Assembly (NCBI GenBank): GCA_002067095.1
Contig: MVQD01000106.1
Coordinates: 124,001-188,000, forward strand
Length of the DNA: 64,000 nucleotides
Source: Methanoregulaceae archaeon PtaB.Bin056
GTDB taxonomy: Archaea > Halobacteriota > Methanomicrobia > Methanomicrobiales > Methanospirillaceae
Reading direction: 5' to 3'
Positions 8,143 to 49,778 of this stretch are shown here, piece by piece. The position numbers and the translations under genes were made by a program. The notes below the pieces were generated by a model. The model was given only the letters and a program-made list of their open reading frames with translations, was not told where the DNA came from and ran no database searches. Position 1 is the stretch's first letter, and every line of letters begins with the position of its first letter.

Positions 8143-8225
8143 AATCCGGCCAAAAAATGCCTGTAATTTGGGTGGCATGCACCACCAGAAAAGATATAAC
8201 CGGCAGGTTCTAATATACTAGAAGA

Positions 8226-43185: not shown

Positions 43186-45276
43186 ATGAGAGGCGGTCCA
43201 AGAGTGAAGAGAGAAGCGGGAGGGGGAGATGGTCCCCTGCTCCTTGCCGAGCAGGAAGGGATGGCCCTCCTTGCAGGAGCGGGGATAACAGTCCCACAGC
43301 ACGGTGTCGCGAGATCCCCGGAGGAGGCAGGAAGGATTGCCGGGTCGATAGGATTCCCGGTGGTAATGAAAGTCGTATCACCCCAGGTGGTACACAAGAG
43401 CGACGCAGGGGGGGTCGTTTCCGGGATCCACTCTGTTGAGGAAGCAAGAGACGCGTTCCGGGCGATATCCGGGTCGGTCCTGGAGAAGGTACCCGGGGCG
43501 AAGATCTCCGGCATAATCGTGGCAAAGCAATATCCCCAGGGCCTCGAACTTTTTGTAGGCGGGAGGACAGACCGTGCATTCGGGAAGGTGATTACCTTCG
43601 GCGTTGGAGGCACGCTCGTAGAACTCCTCGGTGACGTGTCGATCAGGGTGCTTCCCGTCGACAGGGCAACTGTCGAGGATATGATCGACGAGATCCGCGG
43701 GTCACGTATCATCCGGGGGTTCCGCGGTTCGGCCCCGCTTGACAGGGAAGCCCTCGTGGATGCAATCCTGCGGCTCGCGCATCTCTTCGAAGACGACCCC
43801 GACTGGTATGAATTCGACATCAACCCCCTGATCCTGTACCCACGCGGCTGTGTCGCGGTGGACGCGAGGGTGTACCTTGCCCGTGGGCAGGAGAAGGAGA
43901 CGGATGCTCAAGGCCCCACCCCCGGCGAAGACCTCCTCTATCCCCGTTCAGTTGCCATCATCGGTGCCTCCTCTGATCCTCAGAAGATTGGTTACGTGGT
44001 CCTTCGGAACCTGCTCCAGTTCCCGGGGCCGGTCTATCCTGTAAATCCGAAGAGCCAGGAGATCCTCGGGAAACGGGCCTATCCCCGCATTACGGAAGTT
44101 CCAGGTGAGGTGGATGCTGCGGTGATCGCAATTCCTGCCCTGGCAGTCCCTGGTGCTCTTCGCCAGTGCACGCAGAAAGGCGTGAAGCTTGCCATAATCC
44201 TCTCATCGGGGTTCCGCGAGAGTGGGGAGGAAGGCGCGATGCTCGAGAAGGAGATCCTGGAGATCGCCCGCGCAGGTGGTATCCGTATTGTGGGCCCGAA
44301 CTGCCTTGGGATCATCCTCCCCCACATGAACCTCAATACCACGTTTGACCCCGTCTCACCTATGCAGGGGCACATCGGTTTTATTTCCCAGAGCGGGGCA
44401 GTCGTCACGACTATCGTTGACTGGAGCATTCCTGAATACATTGGCTTTTCAATGGTGATAAGCGTCGGAAACCAGGTCGACCTGGGGTTCGTTGACTTCA
44501 TCCGAATGGTTGCAGCCGACTCCCATACACGGGCCATCATCCTTTACGTCGAGGAGATACGGCGCGGGAGGGAGTTTCTCCATGCCGTAAAGGAGATTAC
44601 AGGGACAAAGCCGGTTATCGCGCTCAAGTCAGGCTCTTCACGCAAAGGACAGAGAGCGGCAGCCTCGCACACCGGTTCGCTCGCAGGGAATTACCAGGTG
44701 TACCAGGCAGCATTCCGCCAGGCAGGGATCATCCCAGTCTACACCATCCAGGAGGCTTTCGATGTTGCAGAACTTCTCGCCTCGGAAGGGTACCCGGAGG
44801 GGAACAGGGCCCTCGTGATCACGACTGCAGGCGGTTTTGCAGTGATGGCATCCGATTATGCGGAGTGGTACGGCATCTCCCTCCCACCACTCCCCGAAGA
44901 GATGATCAATGCCCTCGATGAGTTCCTGCCCCCGATGTGGAGCAGGGAGAACCCCCTTGACATCATAGGGGACGGGGGGGCCGAACGGTATGCAAGGGTC
45001 TTTGACGTACTGACCCGGTTCCAGGACTACTGGGATATTGCCGTTGTGATCGCGGTCCCTTCGGCAATTCTCGACCCTGCCCACCTTGGCCAGGAGATTG
45101 CAAGGTTCTCGAGGAACACTCACAAGATGGTCATCGGTTGCATCCTCGGGGGCGACAGCATGAAGAGCGGTGAACGGGTACTGCGGGAAAGGCATATCCC
45201 GAATTACCGCGAAATAGACGGAGCGTTCAGGGCGGTGGGGAGGGCGCTCTCTGCACGCCCGCAACAAAAAGATTGA
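43186..45276 (+). CDS. ADP-forming acyl/acetyl-CoA synthetase, fused beta-alpha type
   Basis: 696 aa. Residues about 15-230 are the ATP-grasp beta domain (PVVMKVVSPQVVHKSDAGGVVSGI, EFDINPLIL) and about 245-690 the CoA-binding and ligase alpha part (SVAIIGASSDPQKIGYVVLRNL, GPNCLGIILP, GFISQSGAV, SHTGSLAGNYQVY with the phospho-His). The beta-alpha order is one of the known fusions of ADP-forming acetate-CoA ligases. It makes ATP from acyl-CoA; in a methanogen, reversal for acetate or other acid activation is possible. Start uncertain: ATG at 43186 or GTG at 43204. Confidence 0.86.
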   Translation: MRGGPRVKREAGGGDGPLLLAEQEGMALLAGAGITVPQHGVARSPEEAGRIAGSIGFPVVMKVVSPQVVHKSDAGGVVSGIHSVEEARDAFRAISGSVLEKVPGAKISGIIVAKQYPQGLELFVGGRTDRAFGKVITFGVGGTLVELLGDVSIRVLPVDRATVEDMIDEIRGSRIIRGFRGSAPLDREALVDAILRLAHLFEDDPDWYEFDINPLILYPRGCVAVDARVYLARGQEKETDAQGPTPGEDLLYPRSVAIIGASSDPQKIGYVVLRNLLQFPGPVYPVNPKSQEILGKRAYPRITEVPGEVDAAVIAIPALAVPGALRQCTQKGVKLAIILSSGFRESGEEGAMLEKEILEIARAGGIRIVGPNCLGIILPHMNLNTTFDPVSPMQGHIGFISQSGAVVTTIVDWSIPEYIGFSMVISVGNQVDLGFVDFIRMVAADSHTRAIILYVEEIRRGREFLHAVKEITGTKPVIALKSGSSRKGQRAAASHTGSLAGNYQVYQAAFRQAGIIPVYTIQEAFDVAELLASEGYPEGNRALVITTAGGFAVMASDYAEWYGISLPPLPEEMINALDEFLPPMWSRENPLDIIGDGGAERYARVFDVLTRFQDYWDIAVVIAVPSAILDPAHLGQEIARFSRNTHKMVIGCILGGDSMKSGERVLRERHIPNYREIDGAFRAVGRALSARPQQKD

Positions 45277-45296: not shown

Positions 45297-46121
45297 CTAC
45301 CCATGACCCTGCAACATGCTCTCATTGCAGGTCACGACGAACCCGGTGGGACGGCCGTTCTCGTCGCGGGCCGGGAGGATACTGCATTCCATGTGGATAC
45401 ATCTGCCATCCGGGCCCATGAATACAAGGGGAACCGGGCAAATGGCATCATCCCGGCTTTCGCTGCCTCCTATCACATGTTCGAGAAAGACAATCAATTC
45501 TCTTGACGAATTTTTATCGAGAATACTGTTGAAGGAGAGGAGTTCCTGACGATTGGTTTTCAATCCGGAGATCCTGGTAGCAGACCGGTTCAGGTAACGG
45601 ATATGCAACCTCTCATCAAGAACGAAGACCGGCACGGGAAGGGTTTCGAGCACTCCCAGCGGGGTCGTGAATGCGATATCCCAGGGGTGTTGGTGACGGT
45701 ATCCCCGGGAGGCGCGCATCACGCATTCCTTCAGGCGGTGAAATACCTCTCGCGGGGAACCAGACTTGGTGAGATAATAGTCTACTCCGGCATTGCACGC
45801 TTCCATCGCCACCGTCTCATTTCCCTTTCCTGTGAAGATGATGAACGGCGTATCGTCACCTGACTCCCGGAGATGGCAAAGAAAGGTGATGCCATCCTCT
45901 CCGGGCATGTCGTAGTCTGAAATAATCACCTCATAGTGCCGTTTCTCGAGGAGGGTCCTGGCCTCCGCCGGGGATGCGCAAAGGTCAACCAGGACATCGC
46001 CGTCCTTCTCGAGCGCAAGTTTCGTCACAGGAAAGAGTGCTGGTTCATCGTCAACAAGGAGAACGCGGATCAATAGATCACCTTTTCCTGTATCCCTGGT
46101 ATAAAAAAAATTGTCTCTCAT
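45297..46121 (-). CDS. Response regulator with receiver and PAS domains
   Basis: 274 aa. Receiver domain with IRVLLVDDEPALF, phospho-acceptor Asp in VIISDYDMPGEDG, FTGKGNE and the switch lysine TKSG; then a PAS domain from about residue 155 (LETLPVPVFVLDERLHIRYLNRSA). No DNA-binding or kinase domain follows, so it may be an intermediate. A TTG at 46073 with GGTGAT before it is a good alternative start. No kinase adjacent; the hybrid kinase at 24-27 kb is one possible partner, by speculation only. Confidence 0.85.
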   Translation of the reverse strand: MRDNFFYTRDTGKGDLLIRVLLVDDEPALFPVTKLALEKDGDVLVDLCASPAEARTLLEKRHYEVIISDYDMPGEDGITFLCHLRESGDDTPFIIFTGKGNETVAMEACNAGVDYYLTKSGSPREVFHRLKECVMRASRGYRHQHPWDIAFTTPLGVLETLPVPVFVLDERLHIRYLNRSATRISGLKTNRQELLSFNSILDKNSSRELIVFLEHVIGGSESRDDAICPVPLVFMGPDGRCIHMECSILPARDENGRPTGFVVTCNESMLQGHG

Positions 46122-46221
46122 GAATCATCATAATTTTCAACAGCTACTCAGTTCCTTGTTGAACCTTCAGGTTCAATCATTGAATTACCAGTGAGGGTGG
46201 TAGTACTCTCCTGATGTGTCC

Positions 46222-46230
46222 AATTTAAAA
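46222..46230 (+). promoter_or_regulatory. TATA-like element before candidate RNA
   Basis: AATTTAAAA preceded by CC, about 25-30 nt before the region 46250-46260 where the outer stem of the candidate RNA begins. Confidence 0.45.
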
Positions 46231-46249: not shown

Positions 46250-46636
46250 GTATGGTGAGGCATGGAAGTGAGGCCGGAGGATTGCCACCCCGAAAGAGGG
46301 GCGACCGGTGAAGGGATTCAACTGTGGCGGTGAAAGGAATCATGTTCATCCCGTTCACCGGAGAGGCACGATGCCCGTCCCTAATGTGCCGAGGCGTCCC
46401 CGTGCCCCGCTGTCCCCTGCGAGGAGGCTTGGGACAGCATGCAACACCACCAAAAAATGACATCCACCAAACCGTCAGAGGAACGTACCACGTCCTTCGA
46501 GCATCACACCCTATCGGCAATTGGACACTTGTAGCGCATGCCAGATCCTGAAAAACTTGCACACACTCACAACAGATGCAGACCGCGCTCCCCGCAGGAG
46601 CTGTTACTGCAGGGGAGCACCCATACTATTTTTTTA
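46250..46636 (+). ncRNA. Candidate structured noncoding RNA
   Basis: No plausible protein gene covers this region, yet it is dense in strong inverted repeats. CCCC/GGGG closing a GAAAGA loop at 46288-46301. A 13-bp stem with one bulged G, CCGGTGAAGGGAT (46305-46317) with 46348-46361. GGCAC/GTGCC at 46365-46390. GCTGTCCC/GGGACAGC at 46409-46438. AGGA-CGT/ACG-TCCT at 46479-46496. An outer stem GGCATG/CATGCC (46259-46264 with 46537-46542) could close the whole. A TATA element precedes it and a terminator follows on the same strand. RNase P and SRP core motifs are absent. 46122-46221 and 46637-46777 contain nothing else I can name. Confidence 0.5.
46587..46636 (+). terminator. Strong terminator after candidate RNA
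   Basis: GCTCCCCGCAG (46587-46597) pairs with CTGC-A-GGGGAGC (46607-46618), 11 pairs with one bulge; ten nt later comes a T7 tract (46630-46636). It points to termination of plus-strand transcription, although both neighbouring genes are on the minus strand. Confidence 0.65.
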
Positions 46637-46777: not shown

Positions 46778-48958
46778 TCAGTCCTCGAATATGTGATACC
46801 GGTCCCCATTATCCTCGCGAAGGAGGAATGCATCGAGGTCCCTGATCAGGTCCCGGACATTCTGGTAACGGTCATCGGGGTTCTTCTCAAGGCAGCGCAT
46901 GACGATTGCATCGAGCGGGAGCGCCTCAGGATTCAAGGTCGAAGGTGGGCTGGGGGCCTCCGTGAGGATAAGTCCACTGACTTTCACCATGTCGTTGCCT
47001 GGGAAGGGGACCGTTCCTGTGAGCAATTCATACAGGACGCACCCAATCTGGTAGATATCTGTCCGCTGGTCGGTCTCTCCGAATGTCTGGGGTGCCAGCT
47101 GCTCCGGGGCGGCGTACGCGAGTGAGAACCCTGTGATGGTGGGCATTCCGGTCACCCCCATCACCTTGCTCATCCCCCAGTCTGTGATCTTTGGCACTCC
47201 CTCGTAGGTTACAAGGATATTATGGGGCTTGATATCCCGGTGGATTATCCCTCTTTCGTGGGCAAAAAGGAGGCCCCGGGCAACGTCGCGGCAGAACCTC
47301 GCGGCAGACCTGGCCGGGAGGGGCTTGTGGACATCGGCGAGGGTCTTTGGGACGTACTCCATCTCCACGTATGGGACGGGGAGGATATTCACCCCGCTCA
47401 CCCGCACGATATTCTCATGGTTCAGTCCTTCCCACCCGACTATCTCCTTCAAAAATGATTTCCCAGTCTTCTCATCCGATTGCAGGGGTATCTTCAACGC
47501 CACCTCCTGCCCGGACTGGAGATTCCTTGCCCTGTAGACCCTGGCGAGCCCACCTGAACCAACGAACTCCATCACTTCATATTTCTCCGTGAGTTCCTTT
47601 GGAAACATCCCGTTTCCGGCTATGGCGGGTGTGCGAAGATCTGTCTGCCCATCAGGGAAGGCACTTCGCATATCCGGGGCGCCCGGCATTTCCCCCTGGC
47701 CGGGCCAGTATATTCCGTCCTGCCAGCGGGCTGCAAGGGTGGAGAGTATCGCGGCGAGGAGCATCACCCCAGTGATGAACTGCCGTGAAGGGTCGCCGGT
47801 GAGCAGACTCATGAACGCAAGGAAGATCAGCATGACCCCTGCGATGATATGGACCTTCAGCGTCCCCCGGAATGGCCACGAGATGAGAGACCCGATCATC
47901 AGTGCGATGGATGAGAGGATCATGTACATAACCAGGGGCATCGCAACCGCGATTAGTTCGGGATTAAGGGCCCCTACACTCTCCCCCTGATAGATGAGGT
48001 ACCAGTGAAGGACTACCCCCATTGCGATGCATGGGATGGCAAAGAGTGCAAAGGATACGAGGCGCCTGAAAAGAGGAATCCCGATCTGGCGGCGTGAGCC
48101 GAGCACATCCCTGATGATGAGAAGTGTGGCCAGGGCCCCCGCTGCGAGCAAGATCAATCCTCCTGGAATTACTGGCGAAGACGGAGGCATCGTGCCGTTT
48201 CCTGGCAGTGTCGGGACCGTCTGGTTAGGAAGTGGTGTCTGTTCCGTGATTGGGATGATGACTGGAGGTGTGCCGGGAATGTCGGCAGTGGTGGTGGGAG
48301 ACGTGGTAGGGATAGTGGTGGTGGCAGTGGTGGTAGGAGACGTGGTAGGGACAGTGGTGGTGGCAGTGGTGGTGGGAGACGTGGTAGGGACAGTGGTGGT
48401 GGCAGTGGTGGTGGGAGACGTGGTAGGGACAGGGACAAGCACTGCTGTTGGGACTATGGTCATCTGACCCTCGGTCACCTGTACTTCGGTGCTGAATTCC
48501 TGGTATCCTGCCAGGAGCATGCGGATGGAATGCATCCCGGGAGCAATGCGGGAAAACGTCACCGGGCCGCCGGGATCGGTAGTCCCGTAAAAGGTATTGT
48601 CGATATATACGTCCGCTCCCCCCGGCCTTGAATGGACCTGCAGCGAACCGTACACCGGCAGGAACGTGACAGAAATGACATGGTTGGTATTGACCTTGTT
48701 GAAGGTGTATAAGGGGATCGCGCCGAGTGACTTCTGGTCCACCATCACGTTCTCTATCCGGTAGCCCTGGAACGGCTCGATCACGAAGAGCTGGTCGCCT
48801 CCTTTCGGGACCGACACTTCGCCGGAAGGGGAGATCTTTCCTCCCGGCCCGGCACTGGCTCTGATGGTATAGGTATCGGCGGCAAATGAAGATGCGGGCA
48901 GGGAAATGAGGGCGATTATGAGTATGATGACGGGGAAATGCGGGTGTGGATGGTACAT
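46778..48958 (-). CDS. Membrane Ser/Thr protein kinase with PEGA domain
   Basis: 726 aa. Signal peptide 1-27; an InlB-like beta repeat (about 29-100); a PEGA domain (103-165: GSLQVHSRPGGADVYIDNTFYG); a Thr/Pro/Ser repeat linker 177-225; five membrane helices (about 264-410); and a cytosolic kinase domain from 460. Kinase residues seen are GSGGLARVY, VALKI (Lys489), HRDIKPHN (573-580), and APE in YAAPEQL. The metal-binding DFG is DWG (593-595), keeping the Asp. A Hanks-type kinase that may sense envelope state. Its gene lies 28 bp after an FHA/winged-helix gene. The ATG at 48958 places the signal peptide at the very N-terminus; frame to 49042 overlaps the upstream gene. Confidence 0.88.
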   Translation of the reverse strand: MYHPHPHFPVIILIIALISLPASSFAADTYTIRASAGPGGKISPSGEVSVPKGGDQLFVIEPFQGYRIENVMVDQKSLGAIPLYTFNKVNTNHVISVTFLPVYGSLQVHSRPGGADVYIDNTFYGTTDPGGPVTFSRIAPGMHSIRMLLAGYQEFSTEVQVTEGQMTIVPTAVLVPVPTTSPTTTATTTVPTTSPTTTATTTVPTTSPTTTATTTIPTTSPTTTADIPGTPPVIIPITEQTPLPNQTVPTLPGNGTMPPSSPVIPGGLILLAAGALATLLIIRDVLGSRRQIGIPLFRRLVSFALFAIPCIAMGVVLHWYLIYQGESVGALNPELIAVAMPLVMYMILSSIALMIGSLISWPFRGTLKVHIIAGVMLIFLAFMSLLTGDPSRQFITGVMLLAAILSTLAARWQDGIYWPGQGEMPGAPDMRSAFPDGQTDLRTPAIAGNGMFPKELTEKYEVMEFVGSGGLARVYRARNLQSGQEVALKIPLQSDEKTGKSFLKEIVGWEGLNHENIVRVSGVNILPVPYVEMEYVPKTLADVHKPLPARSAARFCRDVARGLLFAHERGIIHRDIKPHNILVTYEGVPKITDWGMSKVMGVTGMPTITGFSLAYAAPEQLAPQTFGETDQRTDIYQIGCVLYELLTGTVPFPGNDMVKVSGLILTEAPSPPSTLNPEALPLDAIVMRCLEKNPDDRYQNVRDLIRDLDAFLLREDNGDRYHIFED
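48282..48431 (-). repeat. 39-bp tandem repeat coding the kinase linker
   Basis: Three full and two partial copies of a 39-bp unit encode VPTTSPTTTATTT repeats in the extracytoplasmic linker of the kinase. Copies differ by single bases. The length is a multiple of three, so copy changes keep the frame and would alter linker length. Confidence 0.85.
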
Positions 48959-48986
48959 GGAACGCGAGGGAACGGGGTCGTCCAGG

Positions 48987-49778
48987 TCACTTCCTGCCTG
49001 GGAGGATGACCAGAAGGCGGGCTCCCGCGGTCCCCTTTGCAAGTTCGATCAAGTCCCCGTCACACACCTCAACCGGGACTCGCTTCTGGAGGGGGTTGCT
49101 GTTCAGATAGGTACCTCCCGTGCTCCCCCTGTCCTCGATCAGCCACTTGGTCCCCTCCTTCCTGAAGACTGCATGGGGCCTGCTTACCCTGCTTACAGAT
49201 GTGTACTCGGGGGATAGTATCACATCCCCCTCATTCTCCTGTGACTCTCTGGCACCCGGATCCACACGCCCGATGCGAATGCCGGTCTCCGGGACACAGA
49301 AACACTTCCCGTCCTCGGGCCCCCCGAGGAGGATGAGCATCGGGTGGTTGCCGGTGATATCTCCCTCGATTGCGTGCCTGACCTCGTCGAGACGCCTCTT
49401 GAGGTCGGTATCGGTCATCTTGATCCTCATGTTGGAGAAGATGCCAAGGTTCCGTACGACGGCCTCCATTGCCCCCGGGACAAGCGAGTATTTCCAGACG
49501 GGGTGCACACCTTTCGAAGTCTGCTGGCCGAGTCCCACCTCTTTTCTGATGAGGCCCATTCCCATCAGCTTATCCAGGTGCTTCTTGGTATTCTCGTAGC
49601 TTGTTGATATCTCGGATGCAATCATGCGCACGTCGCGGGGTTTTCTCTCAAGCATCTTGAGTATCTTCAGGCGCTGGCTGTTGGAGAGGACTTCCAGGTA
49701 CTCGGAGAGCTCATGGTAATAGTCAGGGATCTCATCAAGTACAACGGTCCTGGCTGTGTCCTGGGGTTCCCTGGTCAT
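48987..49778 (-). CDS. Winged-helix/FHA domain protein
   Basis: 263 aa. An ArsR-like winged helix lies at about 20-100 (EYLEVLSNSQRLKILKMLERKPRDVRMIASEISTSYENTKKHLDKLMGMGLI). A short linker leads to an FHA domain at about 165-255 with the phosphothreonine-binding residues in GIRIGRV, SVSRPHAVF and RGSTGGTYLN. FHA domains bind phospho-Thr peptides, so the product could read out the kinase encoded 28 bp downstream. GGAGGTGG precedes the ATG at 49778 and a TCTATATAGA element lies just before that. Frame beyond 49778 is rejected. Confidence 0.85.
   Translation of the reverse strand: MTREPQDTARTVVLDEIPDYYHELSEYLEVLSNSQRLKILKMLERKPRDVRMIASEISTSYENTKKHLDKLMGMGLIRKEVGLGQQTSKGVHPVWKYSLVPGAMEAVVRNLGIFSNMRIKMTDTDLKRRLDEVRHAIEGDITGNHPMLILLGGPEDGKCFCVPETGIRIGRVDPGARESQENEGDVILSPEYTSVSRVSRPHAVFRKEGTKWLIEDRGSTGGTYLNSNPLQKRVPVEVCDGDLIELAKGTAGARLLVILPGRK

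Follow-up and report, generated by a model that had tools for sequence, protein, structure and literature searches.

Anatomy of the locus

The gap between a response regulator gene and a protein kinase gene in the genome of a Methanolinea species raises the question of whether it holds an RNA gene of its own, and of what such an RNA would do. An earlier note on this DNA had suggested that an unannotated structured RNA is encoded on the plus strand. It had described a promoter-like element, hairpins including one of 13 bp, a possible closing stem and a T-tract, and we found all of these where it had placed them. Both flanking genes, the response regulator (46121-45297) and the kinase (49042-46778), are on the minus strand, as it had also said. 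The operator at 46159-46176, the question of coding or noncoding and the link to the FHA and kinase genes were absent from that note and are treated here. Positions refer to the window, i.e., the whole stretch of 64,000 nucleotides that was analysed. The features of the locus are as follows.

43186..45276, plus strand: ADP-forming acyl-CoA synthetase gene (acs), the stable left neighbour (Pfam)
45297..46121, minus strand: response regulator with a PAS domain; only some genomes have a comparable gene in the interval from acs to the RNA
46159..46176, plus strand: palindromic operator TTGAACC-TTCA-GGTTCAA with the core AACC-N4-GGTT, from promoter comparison; binding is predicted
46222..46229, plus strand: TATA box of the RNA promoter, AATTTAAA, conserved in all homologues
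46250..46636, plus strand: predicted noncoding RNA of ~385 nt, with a 5' end expected at 46250, give or take a few bases
46254..46264, plus strand: 5' block GGTGAGGCATG, invariant or nearly so in alignment A1
46254-46264 with 46537-46541 (CATGC) and 46566-46570 (CTCAC), plus strand: possible closing stem, putative
46288..46301, plus strand: small hairpin H2, CCCC-GAAAGA-GGGG, from sequence and pair-cell counts
46305-46317 / 46348-46361, plus strand: main hairpin H3, 13 bp with one bulge, from compensatory changes and the arm-swap test
46324..46347, plus strand: apical loop GTGGCGGTGAAAGGAATCATGTTC, near-invariant within the genus
46365..46390, plus strand: hairpin H4, GGCAC/GTGCC, almost invariant, displaying the loop GATGCCCGTCCCTAAT
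46409..46438, plus strand: hairpin H5, GCTGTCCC/GGGACAGC, 8 bp, of varying length, with two-sided changes
46461..46483, plus strand: conserved block CATCCACCAAACCGTCAGAGGAA, from the alignment
46536..46570, plus strand: conserved 3' block GCATGCCAGATCCTGAAAAA...CACACACTCAC, from the alignment
46587..46635, plus strand: GC-rich 3' hairpin (46587-46618), then a T-tract of seven T (46629-46635), presumed terminator
46778..49042, minus strand: PEGA plus Ser/Thr protein kinase, convergent to the RNA (Pfam PF08308, PF00069)
48987..49778, minus strand: FHA plus ArsR-type winged-helix regulator (Pfam PF00498, PF01022)

The 5' end at ~46250 was deduced from the TATA spacing, and in all homologues the TATA box lies ~30 bp ahead of the GGTGA block. 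A hairpin-like stretch followed by a T-tract was found at the terminator position in most homologues, with differing sequence. At the sequence level the element has a promoter and a terminator of its own, namely the conserved TATA box and the T-tract. Generic terminator and promoter scans showed no excess on the plus strand.

Conservation within Methanolinea

The element was found in 11 of the 13 Methanolinea genomes, at a single locus in each and nowhere else (BLAST, 61 genomes), and the covariance model recovered the same 11. This agreed with the earlier note, which had staked its proposal on conservation in the syntenic regions of relatives. One genome in which the element was not detected (G004) is an incomplete assembly, where the acs contig ends before the locus. 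Another (G007, 99% complete) presents an empty site (L104), with acs and the kinase gene 60 bp apart and the RNA absent; neither the exact operator site nor a match to the promoter profile R2 described below was found in this genome.

The Methanolinea copies mostly share 70-90% nucleotide identity, and their alignment shows invariant blocks alternating with variable stems. The block CATGCCAGATCCTG was unchanged in ten sequences, and a search for this pattern in 84,980 species returned only Methanolinea-type MAGs. Viral origin is without support, because a search of the IMG/VR viral contigs gave no match to the element.

Structure and covariation

The earlier note had regarded the cluster of hairpins as too large for chance. 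This argument proved weaker than claimed, as the folding energy is ordinary and size alone is insufficient. The plus strand did not fold better than chance (z = -1.07; 17 of 100 shuffles folded equally well), and the minus strand gave z = -1.73. The locus stands above chance because it is conserved and shows compensatory pair changes, not because of its folding energy.

In the 11 sequences aligned to the covariance model, standard pairs occupied 87.4% of the pair cells, compared with 27-47% after one arm was slid by 1-3 columns. Two-sided changes were observed in 24 cells against 10.1 ± 2.5 in shuffles, and the covariation score was 0.151 against 0.091 ± 0.011, a value that none of 500 shuffles reached. 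Because the alignment had been fitted to the structure, an alignment-free test was added, in which each arm next to the conserved apical loop was matched with the opposite arm of its own and of other species, using 13 non-redundant sequences from Methanolinea, g15, g8 and g10. The true arm partners of H3 paired better (mean -23.9 vs -20.0 kcal/mol; 0 of 100,000 permutations, p < 1e-5), with a signal that came mainly from Methanolinea and g15, the arms of g8 and g10 being weak alone.

The stem at 46305/46361 had been set beforehand as the place where compensatory changes should appear, and 7 of the 13 pairs of H3 indeed change on both sides. In H5 a two-sided change was found in 4 of 8 pairs. 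H2 was paired in 77% of its cells with a two-sided change in one of four pairs, and it was reduced or absent in L007. The pairs of the closing stem were kept in 94-98% of cells, mostly without any variation. The closing stem and H4 are only putative, because they are nearly invariant and covariation cannot support them.

Taken together, conserved sequence and compensatory changes are both found, as expected of a structured noncoding RNA gene, and the comparative evidence strongly supports the predicted RNA gene, the H3 structure, the promoter anatomy and the conservation. We consider that 46250-46636 on the plus strand is almost certainly a previously undescribed RNA gene, and the proposal of an unannotated structured RNA is thereby upheld.

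Known RNA families

The size of the element would suit one of the large archaeal RNAs, so that a diverged RNase P RNA, SRP RNA or C/D or H/ACA guide RNA has to be considered. The Rfam 15 cmscan of the window reported only three tRNAs above the curated threshold, and at permissive thresholds the locus was without a match at E = 1, the best sub-threshold hit having E of about 4. The RNase P RNA model (RF00373) did not match the locus and found the real gene at G000:C106:110424-110771 (E 3e-61); the SRP RNA model (RF01857) likewise gave no match here and found its gene at G000:C30:49900-50212 (E 7e-44). The earlier note had set both RNAs aside, and in this it was borne out. A diverged member of a known archaeal family is hardly credible.

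Homologues in other genera

Beyond Methanolinea, neither BLAST nor the genus model R1 gave an accepted element. The R1 matches outside the genus (L043-L052, among 232 genomes of the order) resembled protein-coding sequence and were rejected as chance, and on the syntenic loci of other genera R1 detected nothing. Promoter and synteny were used for tracing because R1 is blind to these loci. The acs-kinase gap of g15 genomes measures about 360-520 bp, and in most of them it carries the shared promoter followed by GGTGGAGCATGCC, GGGATCATGTTC, CACCACTTCATCCAATGC and ACTCCATAC, with the order of the Methanolinea blocks kept. An element of the ATCATGTTC type occupies the position of the apical loop in other genera. 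At the loci of g8, g10 and g13, the acs side is occupied by a response regulator gene, and the stretch to the kinase gene, which adjoins the RNA in Methanolinea and g15, is longer. By eye, the interval between RNA and kinase gene in L128 (g8) and L129 (g13) appears to hold an extra gene resembling PP2C-type protein phosphatases.

The sequence profile R2, made of the promoter plus the 5' RNA, matched with E values of about 1e-19 to 1e-12 in g15, g8 and g10 and 1e-5 in g13, scores that come partly from the promoter and mostly from loci that were in the training set of the profile. The case for homology of the RNA body is therefore built on synteny, on the order of the motifs and on the stem test. 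By synteny and promoter, diverged homologues of the predicted RNA are present in four more genera (g15, g8, g10 and g13), with the same acs-kinase synteny and the same promoter.

The same comparison bears on whether the stretch acts in cis, as a riboswitch or leader, as structured DNA or as a bidirectional terminator of the flanking genes. Its intergenic position and the T-tract near the 3' end of the kinase gene would be in keeping with such a role. However, the plus strand carries no gene before the T-tract, the conservation spans 300 nt, and the element has its own conserved promoter and operator. Moreover, the response regulator gene may be present or absent on the left while the RNA and its promoter persist. 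We therefore consider a cis-acting element very unlikely, and the reading as a separate RNA gene is kept.

The operator and its candidate regulator

Of 19 RNA promoters from five genera, nearly all carry the core AACC-N4-GGTT, a few having one change in it, and its spacing to the TATA box was 60-61 bp in 18 of the 19. The four central bases (N4) are free to vary, the half-sites are fixed, and substitutions beyond the core are mirrored on the two sides (TAGAACC/GGTTCTA in L005, GTATAACC/GGTTATAC in L006), which gives the palindrome the appearance of a DNA operator. In the 2.24-Mb genome, the exact site TGAACCN4GGTTCA was found a single time, at the RNA promoter. A second AACC-N4-GGTT core, AACCGGCAGGTT, was seen in the window at 8198-8209.

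Across the order, 21 of 78 promoter-only R2 hits had a homologue of the FHA plus winged-helix gene within ~120 bp, where 0.05 were expected; these hits are phylogenetically non-independent, so that a formal p-value is not to be taken literally, and the association is clear. Two arrangements were observed, upstream on the same strand in g15 and divergent in g5 and g11. The operator is thus found at the regulator's own gene in five g15 genomes, where it immediately precedes the operon that contains the FHA plus winged-helix and kinase genes and is the only other nearby copy, and in 16 divergent cases of g5 and g11. Ten further promoter-only hits fell within 4 kb of such a homologue, nearly all in f4. 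In the Methanolinea genomes read, no AACC-N4-GGTT core was visible upstream of the FHA gene, which counts against regulation by its product.

Since operators cluster at the homologues of its gene, the FHA plus winged-helix protein is the probable operator binder, and since the RNA shares its operator with the FHA plus winged-helix genes, it is the probable output of the kinase module. Operator-like hits also occur in genomes such as G163 in which no homologue of the FHA plus winged-helix protein was recognised at E <= 1e-20, so that another regulator is possible. On this comparative evidence, we consider that the RNA is probably regulated by the FHA plus winged-helix protein.

Promoter-only operator hits from other parts of the order (L179-L192) often preceded genes of exported or membrane proteins, an antiporter-like gene or genes in the vicinity of an ABC exporter. 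This gene set suggests a cell-envelope regulon.

Coding potential

Alternatively, the transcript may be the mRNA of a small protein that evolves fast, or it may be of dual function and include a small ORF. The frame from the conserved ATG at 46342 (46342-46550) is open for at least 50 codons in nine of ten Methanolinea sequences read, and this would speak for a product; the frame showed no sign of selection. Third-position bias was absent, the variable columns being distributed over the codon phases as 30/31/25 with no codon periodicity, and indels of 1 and 2 nt separate close relatives. Reading frames range from 13 to 146 aa across the sequences, and the conserved nucleotide blocks fall in different frames in different species. 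An ORF with a signal-peptide-like, strongly hydrophobic N-terminus was found in none of the RNAs of Methanolinea, g15, g8, g10 and g13. A small protein from the conserved GTG/ATG in Methanolinea was rejected in view of the even phases, the indels and the frames that are not conserved. The element thus lacks a conserved reading frame.

The messenger reading draws further support from g5 and g11 (L204-L219), where a short transcript with two to three operator copies diverges from the FHA plus winged-helix gene. It starts with GGTGAYRCAC and has a conserved short 5' hairpin (GGTGAYRCAC...GTGTCACC) with pair changes. In 12 of the 16 genomes read, it encodes a small protein with a signal-peptide-like N-terminus (MDTGKILIGFAF...). 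However, no such ORF is present in three g5 transcripts (L211-L213), which are left as an RNA with the CCCATSCAATGC block. On balance, we regard a messenger or dual-function RNA as an improbable explanation of the Methanolinea element, and the noncoding reading is preferred.

The g5/g11 transcript is possibly homologous to the Methanolinea RNA. It is conceivable, though we hold it doubtful, that there is an RNA class throughout the archaeal family of Methanolinea, the dedicated output of a pathway from Ser/Thr kinase to FHA/winged-helix protein, which would be noncoding in Methanolinea and four further genera, would have a small secreted-peptide ORF inserted in g5 and g11, and would have switched between RNA-only and dual function.

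Proposed role of the RNA

We propose that the element is a signal-controlled, trans-acting regulatory RNA under the FHA plus winged-helix/kinase module, and we give this reading a probability of roughly one half. The membrane Ser/Thr kinase and the FHA plus winged-helix DNA-binding protein encoded next door would set the transcription of the RNA through the AACC-N4-GGTT operator, which precedes the TATA box by 60-61 bp. The RNA would be transcribed from its own promoter, the transcript itself being predicted, and would end at the T-tract ahead of the convergent kinase gene. It would then fold as an array of hairpins that exposes long conserved loops, and these loops, above all GTGGCGGTGAAAGGAATCATGTTC and GCCCGTCCC, may pair in trans with other RNAs. 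The signal of the kinase would thereby become post-transcriptional control. Base pairing as the mode of action is suggested by the anatomy of the RNA, and we put it forward tentatively, at slightly less than even odds.

The apical loop GTGGCGGTGAAAGGAATCATGTTC is a candidate site for target pairing or for protein binding, and the latter leads to a different view, in which the noncoding RNA is a protein-binding scaffold or decoy, for example for the FHA plus winged-helix regulator, a ribosomal component or RNA polymerase. The element is large and multi-hairpin with conserved loops, and a nucleic-acid-binding regulator is encoded by the neighbour gene, as would be expected for such a function. 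The RNA body, however, diverges fast between genera, which is unusual for the scaffold of a conserved protein, and no known protein-binding motif was recognised in it. A scaffold or decoy is accordingly rather unlikely in our judgement, though less so than a messenger, and we favour the trans-acting regulatory RNA.

Knowledge of regulatory RNAs in Methanomicrobiales methanogens is scant, and our literature search on this subject found no relevant paper. We also know of hardly anything on the targets of archaeal Ser/Thr kinase regulation. In this study, comparison across several genera connects an RNA gene and a conserved operator with a DNA-binding protein that is a candidate phospho-responsive regulator, and these links make a pathway from kinase to RNA in Archaea directly testable. 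They also indicate that promoter and synteny allow a noncoding RNA to be followed once it has diverged past BLAST and a genus-level covariance model.

Comparison with known systems

Archaeal RNase P RNA and SRP RNA resemble the element in length class and in their GC-rich hairpins, but they are encoded by separate genes in the same genome. In organisation the element can be compared with the trans-acting sRNAs SgrS, RNAIII and sRNA162. SgrS and RNAIII are bacterial sRNAs that also encode small peptides, and sRNA162 is a small regulatory RNA of Methanosarcina. Like them, the element has a stand-alone gene, a regulated promoter of its own, a terminator and exposed loops. It shows no homology to them, is larger than most such sRNAs and, unlike them, is apparently regulated by the FHA plus winged-helix member of a Ser/Thr kinase module. 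The related-looking g5/g11 transcripts with their small signal-peptide ORF are reminiscent of dual-function RNAs such as SgrS and RNAIII.

A further comparison is offered by the large ornate bacterial RNAs OLE, GOLLD and ROOL (PMC12286853), the role of which was likewise unknown when they were discovered. The present element differs from these RNAs (PMC12286853) in being smaller and archaeal, in having a body that changes fast between genera, and in having no sequence or Rfam relation to them. It resembles them (PMC12286853) in its length of hundreds of nucleotides, its multi-hairpin architecture and its restriction to one lineage.
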